DNA of 64,000 bases, taken from the NCBI RefSeq assembly GCF_009711415.1, contig NZ_SMLZ01000107.1, positions 62,001 to 126,000 on the forward strand, given 5' to 3'. A model generated the notes under the pieces. That model did no database searches, was not told the DNA's origin, and saw only the letters and a program-made list of their open reading frames with translations. Source of the DNA: Roseibium denhamense. Lineage in GTDB: Bacteria; Pseudomonadota; Alphaproteobacteria; Rhizobiales; Stappiaceae. The first letter of the stretch is position 1; each line of letters opens with the position of its first letter. Positions 56,776-64,000 of the stretch are shown here, piece after piece. A program made the position numbers and the translations under genes.

Positions 56776-57786
56776 ATGACCGAGGACTTGACCCTATCTG
56801 TAGATGAGACGCTGGCGGCTTTGCGTGCGGTTGGTGAGACGACGCGTTTGCGGCTCATTGCCTTGCTCGCAGAAGCCGAGCTGACTGTGAAAGATGCGAC
56901 GGCAATTCTCGGCCAGAGCCAGCCACGCATTTCCCGCCACCTGAAGCTTCTTGCCGAAGCGGATGTCATCCAGCGTTTCCCGGAAGGGTCCTGGGTCTAC
57001 TATCGCCTGGCAGATGGGCCGGAAGGCCAGCTGGCACGCGGCTTAGTTGACCGGATTGCCTCCGACGATCCCGTTCTGGCGGCGGATCAGGAACGCTTTA
57101 AGTCCATTCGCAAGGCGAAAGCGGAAGAGGCAGCTGCCTATTTTGCGGCGCGCGCTCTGTCCTGGGACAAGGAGCGTGCTCTTCATATTCCTGAACACGA
57201 TGTGGAAGCCGCCATGCGGGCCGCGCTTGGGGATACTCCAATCCATTCGTTTCTCGACCTGGGGACGGGAACCGGGCGGTTGCTTGAAGTGTTTTCCGAC
57301 CGGTATTCAAATGCGCTTGGAATAGATGCGTCCCATGACATGCTTGCGGTTGCCCGCGCAAATTTGGCGGAAGCGGGCCTTGCCAACGCTCAGGTTCGCC
57401 ACGGCGATGTTTACGCGCTTAACGTGCCACCACGGTCGTTTGATGTGATTGTTATCCATCAGGTTCTGCACTTTTTGGATGACCCGGCAAGAGCCCTGGC
57501 AGAGGCAGCCCGCGCGCTGCGTCCGGGCGGAAGGCTGCTTATTGCGGATTTTGCACCGCATGAGCTGGAGTTCCTGCGCGACAAGCATGCTCACCGCCGG
57601 CTGGGATTTGCTCATGAGCAGATGGAGCGCTGGCTCCACGCGAACGAACTGGACTTGGAACAGGTCACGGACCTGGTTCCTTCACAAACCGACGGTACGC
57701 TTTTGACCGTCACGCTTTGGCTCGCACGGGACCGCCGCGTCATTACCGACTTGCCTGCCAGAAATCCTTCCCGAGAGGTTGCTTGA
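56776..57786 (+). CDS. sahR: ArsR-family regulator fused to a SAM methyltransferase-like domain (SahR-like)
   Basis: A 336-residue protein. Residues 10-90 are an ArsR winged helix (ETTRLRLIALLAEAELTVKD, ILGQSQPRISRHLKLLAEAD). Residues 145-260 form a class I methyltransferase-like fold with FLDLGTGTGRLLEVFSD and later FDVIVIHQVLHFLDDPARAL. This two-domain form matches SahR, which binds S-adenosylhomocysteine and represses methyl-cycle genes. The gene is preceded by the palindrome at 56736-56755 and is followed 2 bases later by metF. Assignment as SahR is by architecture and context. Confidence 0.85.
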   Translation: MTEDLTLSVDETLAALRAVGETTRLRLIALLAEAELTVKDATAILGQSQPRISRHLKLLAEADVIQRFPEGSWVYYRLADGPEGQLARGLVDRIASDDPVLAADQERFKSIRKAKAEEAAAYFAARALSWDKERALHIPEHDVEAAMRAALGDTPIHSFLDLGTGTGRLLEVFSDRYSNALGIDASHDMLAVARANLAEAGLANAQVRHGDVYALNVPPRSFDVIVIHQVLHFLDDPARALAEAARALRPGGRLLIADFAPHELEFLRDKHAHRRLGFAHEQMERWLHANELDLEQVTDLVPSQTDGTLLTVTLWLARDRRVITDLPARNPSREVA

Positions 57787-62658: not shown

Positions 62659-62743
62659 ACGCCTATTGCTAATTCGGCTAACAAAAATCCGCTGAGGTCT
62701 TGTATCGTTGTTGGCTTATAAAATTTGGGAAAATTCGAAAAAA

Positions 62744-62785
62744 GTGCACATTGTGCGCATTGTAAAAGTGCGCAATGTGCGCTAT
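62744..62785. repeat. four 9-bp direct repeats overlying a promoter
   Basis: GTGCACATT (62744-62752), GTGCGCATT (62753-62761), a GTAAAA spacer, then GTGCGCAAT (62768-62776) and GTGCGCTAT (62777-62785). The four units share GTGCRC-W-T and occur as two tandem pairs whose starts are 24 bases apart. They straddle and fill a promoter (TTGTAA-N17-TATATT). This arrangement suggests a regulator that binds tandem repeats and blocks RNA polymerase. I do not know a regulator with this consensus. Confidence 0.75.
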
Positions 62786-62788
62786 ATT
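62760..62788 (+). promoter_or_regulatory. sigma70-type promoter of the small-ORF unit
   Basis: TTGTAA (62760-62765), a 17-base spacer, then TATATT (62783-62788). The spacer is occupied by repeat units 3 and 4. The expected start is near 62795, giving a leader of about 44 bases. Confidence 0.6.
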
Positions 62789-62806
62789 ATTTCCTATAAC
62801 AAAGAT

Positions 62807-62826
62807 GCCCGACCCAATGGTCGGGC
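62807..62826 (+). promoter_or_regulatory. leader hairpin next to the Shine-Dalgarno site
   Basis: GCCCGACC (62807-62814), loop CAAT, GGTCGGGC (62819-62826): a perfect 8-bp stem ending one base before the GAAGGAGAT ribosome-binding site of the small ORF. It may stabilise the mRNA 5' end or modulate initiation. Confidence 0.7.
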
Positions 62827-62838
62827 GAAGGAGATAAT

Positions 62839-62970
62839 ATGATTGTGCAAGTCGCCAGGACCTTCCTGGTCAACCATCGACAGGATTACAACCGTGACCG
62901 CTTGCCGTGGTTGCCTTCCCGTCTCTACCGGACACTGTTTGAGGCCCGGAAGGGCCGCAAAGCGGGTTAA
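62839..62970 (+). CDS. 43-residue basic small protein
   Basis: A short frame starting ATG at 62839 behind a near-ideal AAGGAG five bases upstream, and stopping at TAA 62968-62970. The product has 43 residues. It begins MIVQVARTFLVNHRQDYNRD and continues with RLPWLPSRLYRTLFEARKGR, so it is strongly basic (about eight Arg plus two Lys) with aromatic residues. There is no signal peptide or membrane helix. I do not recognise a family. A promoter with four repeats precedes it and an intrinsic terminator follows at 63050-63077, so it has its own transcription unit. Confidence 0.65.
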   Translation: MIVQVARTFLVNHRQDYNRDRLPWLPSRLYRTLFEARKGRKAG

Positions 62971-63312
62971 CACCGGAGTTCACGGCCCCACTGCCATCCG
63001 CACCGAGCGGAACAACCAAGAAAACACCTCGGAAACTGAAACACTGAAGACCCGGCTTTCGCCGGGTTTTGTTTTTTGCGGAAAAGGATGTCATCAGTGG
63101 TGTGAAAGATTTATTCAACTGTCATTTGCAAAACGGGTGCTCGTTCTTCGGGGCATGAAGATACGGGAATGGCCGGTGGGTGTTCCAACTCAAGGTGCCC
63201 GGCGCTTGATTTAGAGCGTTTGGAGCACTTCAACCGAGATTTCGGGCTTTGCGATCACGCGGCATCGTGTTGATATCGCCGCCTGTTTCCTGGACTTGGC
63301 GAGCTTGCAGCC
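62971..63312. other. 3' region of the small-ORF unit and gap before the sulfotransferase
   Basis: A 342-base stretch. The first 80 bases are the 3' untranslated part of the small-ORF transcript, then its terminator. The rest (63078-63312) has no credible coding frame. A GCTTGATTTAGAGCG segment near 63207 vaguely recalls the ends of the dispersed repeat but is too short to call. Confidence 0.5.
63050..63077 (+). terminator. intrinsic terminator of the small-ORF unit
   Basis: ACCCGGC (63050-63056), loop TTTC, GCCGGGT (63061-63067), followed by TTTGTTTTTT. It lies 80 bases past the small-ORF stop. Confidence 0.9.
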
Positions 63313-64000
63313 TTGAGTGTTTTTAAGTCTTACGTTTTATGCACCAGCCCACGCAGTGGCAGCACCTTGTTATGCAGGATGCTGGCGGAAACCGGCGTGG
63401 CTGGTGTTCCCAAATCCTATTTCCACAAGCCATCCATTGAGGATTGGCTCGAGTATCACAAGTTGCCGGCACTTGCGGGAGAGGCGGAAAAGGACACACT
63501 GACCCGGATCTTAGAGAGCGCCGTATGCATGGGCCGCGGCGATACGGGTGTGTTCGGGCTTCGTTTACAGAGGCACAGTTTTGAGTTTTTTACCCGGAAC
63601 CTTGCCGTACTGTTTCCGGATGACCGAACGGATCTTCAACGAATGGAGCGCGCATTTGGGCGCATCTTGTTCATTCACTTGACACGGCCCGACAAGGTTG
63701 AACAGGCGGTGTCTTATGTGAAGGCCCAGCAGTCAGGGCTTTGGCACAGGGCGGCAGACGGATTTGAACTTGAACGTTTGTCACCTCACAAAGACCCGGT
63801 CTTCGATCCGAAAGAAATTCAAACGGCGTATGAGCAGTTTGTCCTTGCTGATCGCGACTGGACCACCTGGTTCCATACCCAAGGTATCGTTCCGTTGCGC
63901 CTGACATATGATGAATTGTCCAGTGCGCCGGACGCATGCCTTCAAGACGTCCTCAAGAGGCTTGGTCAAGATCCCAAGAAGGCAGACGGCGTCAAGCCGT
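63313..64000 (+). CDS. Stf0-family sulfotransferase, partial
   Basis: A sulfotransferase that runs off the right edge after about 229 codons. The 5'-phosphosulfate loop YVLCTSPRSGSTLLCRMLAE lies at the N terminus. Later GVFGLRLQRHSF and FIHLTRPDKVEQAVSYVKAQ give the 3'-phosphate-binding region, and WTTWFHTQGI and PLRLTYDELS follow, all typical of Stf0. The first in-frame ATG falls after the PSB loop, so the start must be a non-ATG codon. TTG at 63313 is the best choice, though without a clear ribosome-binding site. The sulphate acceptor is unknown. Mycobacterial Stf0 sulfates trehalose. Confidence 0.85.
   Translation, partial: MSVFKSYVLCTSPRSGSTLLCRMLAETGVAGVPKSYFHKPSIEDWLEYHKLPALAGEAEKDTLTRILESAVCMGRGDTGVFGLRLQRHSFEFFTRNLAVLFPDDRTDLQRMERAFGRILFIHLTRPDKVEQAVSYVKAQQSGLWHRAADGFELERLSPHKDPVFDPKEIQTAYEQFVLADRDWTTWFHTQGIVPLRLTYDELSSAPDACLQDVLKRLGQDPKKADGVKP

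Follow-up and report, generated by a model that had tools for sequence, protein, structure and literature searches.

Why should a reading frame of only 43 codons come with an operator, a leader hairpin and a terminator of its own? The question is raised by a compact unit in the window, the 64,000-nucleotide stretch of DNA analysed here, which lies on contig 66 (C66) of the 4.8-Mb genome G000. The initial annotation had described a TTGTAA-N17-TATATT promoter, an 8-bp leader hairpin, a Shine-Dalgarno site, a basic 43-codon ORF and an intrinsic terminator, and all five are present where it had placed them (Table 1). DNA of the locus was present in 17 of the 24 congeners (Roseibium/Labrenzia, Stappiaceae) searched at first, and the small gene has further carriers in Pannonibacter. 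The taxa compared are kin, and counts across them are not counts of independent events. Searches of plasmid and phage collections gave 0 matches, so the unit is not obviously mobile.

Table 1. Features of the unit and of loci discussed with it
Feature	Position	Strand	Details
Operator dyad 1	62744-62758	+	GTGCAC-ATT-GTGCGC; just 5' of the -35
Sigma-70-type promoter	62760-62788	+	TTGTAA-17-TATATT; -35 at 62760-62765, -10 at 62783-62788
Operator dyad 2	62768-62782	+	GTGCGC-AAT-GTGCGC; between -35 and -10
Leader hairpin	62807-62826	+	62807-62814/62819-62826, 8/8 pairs
Shine-Dalgarno site	62828-62833	+	AAGGAG
43-codon ORF, MIVQVARTFLVNHRQDYNRDRLPWLPSRLYRTLFEARKGRKAG	62839-62970	+	ATG to TAA; coding selection
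3' UTR body	62971-63046	+	GGCCCC at 62984-62989; stem TCCGC/GCGGA at 62997-63011; A-rich AACAACCAAGAAAACA
Intrinsic terminator	63047-63077	+	10-bp stem and T-run; same kind in nearly all relatives
Convergent ArsR-family gene	G000:C66:126105-126788, just past the window's end		about 1 kb downstream of the small gene
trp-internal small gene MAHSLFEPAP... (MAHSLFEPPPEPIHEKV...)	G000:C109:22952-23209 (L170, L174)		antisense between trpB and trpA
95-codon orphan gene MITIQDC... (MITIQDCFGMSGLEEAEIL...)	G000:C66:152047-152385 (L049, L176)		dyad overlaps promoter

The first matter is whether the ORF is a gene. A profile made from the protein alignment (A2) finds matches in 45 of 87 family genomes, divergent paralogues included, and the protein is present in four genera of the family. 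Distant relatives occur in another family of the order (G202 and G436), and these have the same two-dyad promoter. Over 36 codons in 32 taxa the mean pS is 0.67 and the mean pN 0.16; in core codons 13-31 of the same taxa pN falls to 0.07, and comparison with the four nearest gives a dN/dS of 0.04-0.11. Because synonymous change among the relatives is saturated and amino-acid change is low, the ORF is, judged by its codons, a genuine gene under purifying selection. The suggestion of a controlled small protein thus finds support in the codon evidence. The initial annotation had also named a lack of conservation in close relatives, of either the ORF or the repeats, as an argument against the unit. 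That comparison was made, and it revealed the purifying selection just described and an operator conserved in position, spacing and sequence.

What kind of protein this might be is harder to say. The peptide core is MxVxxAKxxLVxHRQDYNRDRLPWLPxRLYRSxREA. A Pfam search of the window's protein with an E-value limit as loose as 10 gave 0 families, and sequence searches of Pfam, NCBIfam, PHROG(s) and PDB with the peptide or its alignment returned no relative. An AlphaFold2 model has two helices at low confidence (mean pLDDT 62.7, pTM 0.26), too poor a basis for searching by fold. With that caveat, the protein is probably a pair of helices with a PWLP turn between them. The peptide is basic and polar, without a long hydrophobic run, and a consensus scan found no antisense promoter at the unit. 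The unit does not fit a type I toxin-antitoxin locus, in which an antisense RNA accompanies a membrane peptide that is short and hydrophobic. A divergent paralogue, MNLHTAHCLLVRDGLTYNRSRLSWLPSKLYRSFRDANK, is found in G088, G024, G086, G087, G013, G020 and G079 (L111-L115, L120, L121); most of the copies examined have a single dyad, placed in the spacer.

The operator has turned out to be built differently from the way it was first drawn. Four 9-bp repeats had been noted, and four do start at 62744, 62753, 62768 and 62777; three are exact GTGCRCAWT, but the fourth reads GTGCGCTAT. They had been taken for direct tandem 9-mers, whereas comparison reveals inverted repeats that make up two dyads GYGCACNNNGTGCRC. 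The inner GCAC and GTGC are near-invariant, the central NNN is free, and the outer changes that are tolerated are mirror-symmetric, Y on the left and R on the right. On this evidence direct 9-bp repeats were rejected. Site 2 is found in all 32 aligned relatives with no more than one core mismatch. The site 1 core, GCACNNNGTGC, is without mismatch in 24 of 30 relatives and has GTGC changed to GTAC in the other six. Of the 30 two-site taxa, 25 have their dyad centres 24 bp apart, four have them 23 bp apart and one 25 bp; taxa with a single site always have site 2.

Could this arrangement arise by chance? Taken singly, GTGCRCAWT repeats are no commoner in the window than chance would have it (6 against an expected 3.3). 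The strict tandem pattern of two GCACNNNGTGC dyads, however, occurs once per genome and at this locus only, with 0 matches for reversed-pattern controls; a looser version gives a few stray matches, its controls giving 0 or 1 per genome. A motif search for the pair-spacer-pair pattern across related genomes had been recommended at the outset, and the two-dyad patterns do match this locus in most congeners, about once per genome. The tandem dyad arrangement is far beyond chance. The same layout is found in G202 and G436, where CTTGAAAG lies between the two dyads and site 2 is altered to GTGCAANNNTTGCGC or GCGCAANNNTTGCGC. Literature searches for the operator sequence and for a Roseibium operator found no paper.

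The unit had been presented as an isolated one, but its operator is common to other small genes. A pattern of promoter plus single dyad, run over 45 genomes, finds almost only this gene family. There are a few other such loci, three of them the trp-internal small gene, to which these exceptions led. This gene has about 65-73 codons and is unrelated to the 43-aa gene, and the GCACNNNGTGC dyad stands before its -10 in 13 of 13 carrier genomes, the window's own included. The 95-codon orphan gene likewise has a promoter dyad in 5 of 5 nearest genomes, again counting the window's genome. Since the operator is common to at least two unrelated small genes, the unit would be part of a small-protein regulon, and the shared dyad indicates one that has not been described before. 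Small proteins and 3'-UTR sRNAs have mostly been found singly; here an operator signature links several orphan small genes and offers a way to search directly for the signal they have in common. Two further intergenic dyads are possible members: one at G000:C40:26660 (L036), before a 296-codon gene that we take to be DUF1194-like, and one at G000:C91:15227 (L167), near a gene that is presumably IalB-like.

Which regulator reads these dyads? We infer that a single one is conserved across these groups, the distant family included. Autoregulation gave no lead to it: of the strict intergenic dyads examined in the window's genome, all precede small or unrelated genes and none stands behind a transcription-factor gene, though a SorC-like gene flanks one of these intergenic regions on the opposite side. 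The convergent ArsR-family gene downstream was considered as the possible source of a protein binding the operator (GTGCACATTGTGCGC). It has an orthologue in 37 of the 45 congeners, and in most of these the two genes are no more than a few kb apart. However, G015, G016, G018 and G070 keep both operator and small gene with no ArsR match, and ArsR promoters in relatives have a different dyad, TTCGA..TCGAA (TGCTTCGAYNANGATCGAA). For these two reasons the gene is very improbable as the regulator and was rejected.

Known operators are not a close fit either. NtrC-type operators have GCAC and GTGC half-sites about 7 bp apart, whereas at every site here they are separated by 3 bp. In the PraR/CinS system of Rhizobium leguminosarum, the PraR consensus is TTGCAA (PMC4149787). 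This resembles the present case in being an alphaproteobacterial repressor network with a small protein, if repression is indeed what happens here, but the sites are GTGCAC/GCGCAC and not the TTGCAA of the PraR (XRE) operator. The distant relatives in the other family have GCGCAA/TTGCGC at site 2, so there may be a distant relation to the PraR operator.

The promoter itself is conserved, with a -35 that is mostly CTTGWAA in relatives, and transcription would start near 62795. The spacer dyad suggests a repressor, short of proving one, because site 2 sits where polymerase must sit. The window's leader folds well (MFE -17.0, z -4.8), and its hairpin leaves the Shine-Dalgarno site free. Over 32 taxa the leader folds have a mean z of -1.5, with 13 taxa below -1.5, and their sequences differ. 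Relatives keep an SD-like GGAG upstream of the ATG, mostly unpaired, and several taxa are without a leader hairpin. We read the hairpin as a 5' stabiliser or standby structure that is inessential. The whole transcript of the window also folds better than shuffles (z -4.0).

A short ORF followed by a terminator brings to mind a leader peptide or attenuator of a downstream gene, the more so as the small ORF adjoins what we take, by our own reading, to be methionine genes, with a presumed metH upstream. What does not fit is that the terminator closes the unit, that the 3' neighbour varies among genomes and is mostly convergent in relatives' neighbourhoods, and that the ORF has no run of one amino acid's codons. 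Even the upstream metH is replaced in some relatives by what we presume, from our own reading of its C-terminus, to be a malate synthase gene. Attenuation is disfavoured to the point of being scarcely credible.

It remains to ask whether the transcript has a second product. A covarying structured RNA makes up the 3' UTR in 23 of 45 congeners; it has an unpaired CCCC stretch, A-rich linkers and a terminator that ends in a U-tail. In the main Roseibium clade the region after the stop codon comprises a GGCCCCAAYAAYAA-like sequence, a stem, a CACC-rich linker and the terminator with its U-tail. The stem, RGACGTTY/RAACGTCT, is separate from the terminator, and its loop usually ends in UUGCCCC or AUGCCCC. 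Six of the eight pairs of this central stem have two-sided changes, and 98.5% of cells are paired; sliding the stem partner by one column lowers pairing to about 54%, and the covariation score was reached by 0 of 500 shuffles. A covariance model run on the 45 genomes gives 23 strong matches (76-109 bits), one per genome, the next best match scoring 43 bits. Rfam has nothing at its gathering threshold in the window, and at related loci its best score is 25.7 bits against a cut-off of 114.

One clue to what this RNA does comes from loci where the ORF has decayed. Three of the 23 model matches are without an intact ORF and yet keep the RNA: G013 has lost the start codon and frame, in G071 the ORF is destroyed, and in G081 the frame is open but core residues are replaced. 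The RNA scores of G013 and G081 are partly so by construction, because both are rows of the covariance model; that of G071, which is outside the model, is not. The unpaired CCCC and the A-rich linker are conserved at all three loci. Compared with their nearest relatives, G013 and G081 are more alike in the UTR than in the ORF, by about 10-17 points of identity, whereas in 91 pairs of intact copies the ORF has the higher mean identity (74.5% vs 68.8%) and falls below the UTR in only 11, by at most 5.6 points. Since the UTR RNA survives where the ORF is broken or degenerate, the main-clade 3' UTR is probably a functional 3'-UTR sRNA. Covariation, and retention of the RNA where the ORF is lost, thus speak for the dual-function RNA that had been raised as an alternative to the small protein. 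Some loci have the protein alone, some the protein together with the RNA and some the RNA alone, a natural series that gives an unusual view of a coding mRNA turning into a regulatory RNA. In the sister genomes G020 and G079 (L119, L122) both ORF and 3' RNA are gone and a degraded operator is left; the unit is therefore dispensable.

Should the two products be given equal weight? Perhaps the small protein alone matters, and the 3' UTR is no more than a terminator region of the usual kind, folded in a way that protects the mRNA. The protein is more widespread than the RNA element, being found without recognisable RNA in Pannonibacter and several Roseibium subclades, and in intact copies no other transcribed part is as well conserved as the ORF. 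Against it, UTR structure, CCCC and A-rich linker are kept at the three loci with a broken or degenerate ORF, and compensatory changes fall in a stem apart from the terminator. This reading is unlikely, although we allow it some weight. Conversely, the retention of the RNA despite ORF decay in G013, G071 and G081 might mean that the RNA is the selected product and the ORF it carries is dispensable. Against this stand the low pN and saturated pS over 32 taxa, the peptide motif retained by distant relatives in another family, and the window's own subclade, which keeps the peptide but not the model RNA; we think it quite improbable.

That subclade needs separate treatment. The window's UTR scores 23.7 bits with the covariance model, mostly from the terminator. 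The window and its four nearest relatives share GGCCCC, the A-rich stretch and a different small stem. Identity to these relatives is 64-72% in the UTR body, compared with 44-56% in the leader and 39-46% just past the terminator, and the window's 3' UTR with terminator (110 nt) folds better than shuffles (z -2.6). The higher identity and the better fold point to RNA-level constraint in this subclade too. They hint, weakly and indirectly, at a structure selected independently of the ORF, and whether it is the same RNA as that of the main clade is less certain. Because the UTR is constrained and its structure has diverged, the step involving a 3'-UTR RNA is less sure here.

Taken together, we favour, with a probability of about 0.6, a stand-alone repressor-controlled transcript with two products, a small protein and a 3'-UTR RNA, in a small-protein regulon. 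A dimeric regulator would bind the two dyads, bracketing the -35 and filling the -35/-10 spacer, and would hold off RNA polymerase until a signal frees the promoter. The transcript of about 280 nt would have the 5' hairpin ahead of an open Shine-Dalgarno site, and its translation should yield a basic protein of about 43 residues. The 3' UTR with terminator may act as, or be cut out as, a small regulatory RNA of some 80-120 nt, with the conserved unpaired CCCC segments as putative pairing sites for targets. The AAYAAYAA-like linker and U-tail could serve as an Hfq site; as sequence features the two are consistent with Hfq but say no more than that. The same operator would control at least two further unrelated small genes. 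A bolder proposal is that a putative new regulator that recognises GYGCACNNNGTGCRC governs a regulon given over to unrelated orphan small proteins, both in the Stappiaceae and in one or more further families of the order, within which one transcript gained a 3'-UTR regulatory RNA able to outlive its protein. We offer this tentatively, at somewhat less than even odds.

Among known systems, that of the CcsR sRNAs, which have C-rich loops, invites comparison. On our best reading, by analogy, the unit would be laid out and work most like this system of Rhodobacter sphaeroides, where the tiny protein gene ccaF1 (RSP_6037) has the sRNAs CcsR1-4 in its 3' UTR (PMC8625941). In both, a very short basic alphaproteobacterial ORF is followed by a 3' UTR RNA in the same transcript, but the two are unrelated in sequence. 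CcaF1 is a DUF1127 protein, whereas the window's peptide is without a Pfam match; a DUF1127 search found no match among 17 relatives at E 1, and the unit is not a DUF1127/CcaF1 member. There are four homologous RNAs in that system, compared with one structure here, which has a CCCC segment and no Rfam match, and that system, as it has been described, lacks this two-dyad operator.

Another comparison is with dual-function sRNAs such as SgrS. Spot 42 (spf) and rnTrpL are two more (PMC10117765). Like these three, the unit has one short transcript with a small ORF, a conserved RNA part and an intrinsic terminator. Of the properties of a dual-function sRNA, which also pairs with target mRNAs, usually with the help of Hfq, coding selection was found on the ORF, and an RNA structure selected independently of the ORF was found in the main Roseibium clade. 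However, no sequence relation to the three was found, and the present case is set apart by a two-dyad operator common to other small genes and by an ORF that has repeatedly been lost in nature where the RNA stayed. A literature search found no paper on a Labrenzia small RNA together with a small protein.

Two neighbours deserve mention. Between the small gene and the ArsR gene lies an open frame (63313-64000) that looks like a putative sulfotransferase gene; it is absent from this position in nearest relatives. Directly upstream of the metF and metH genes, at 56776-57786, the window has a gene in which an ArsR-type DNA-binding domain is fused to a methyltransferase (Pfam HTH_5, Methyltransf_11). 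This is likely a methionine-pathway regulator.
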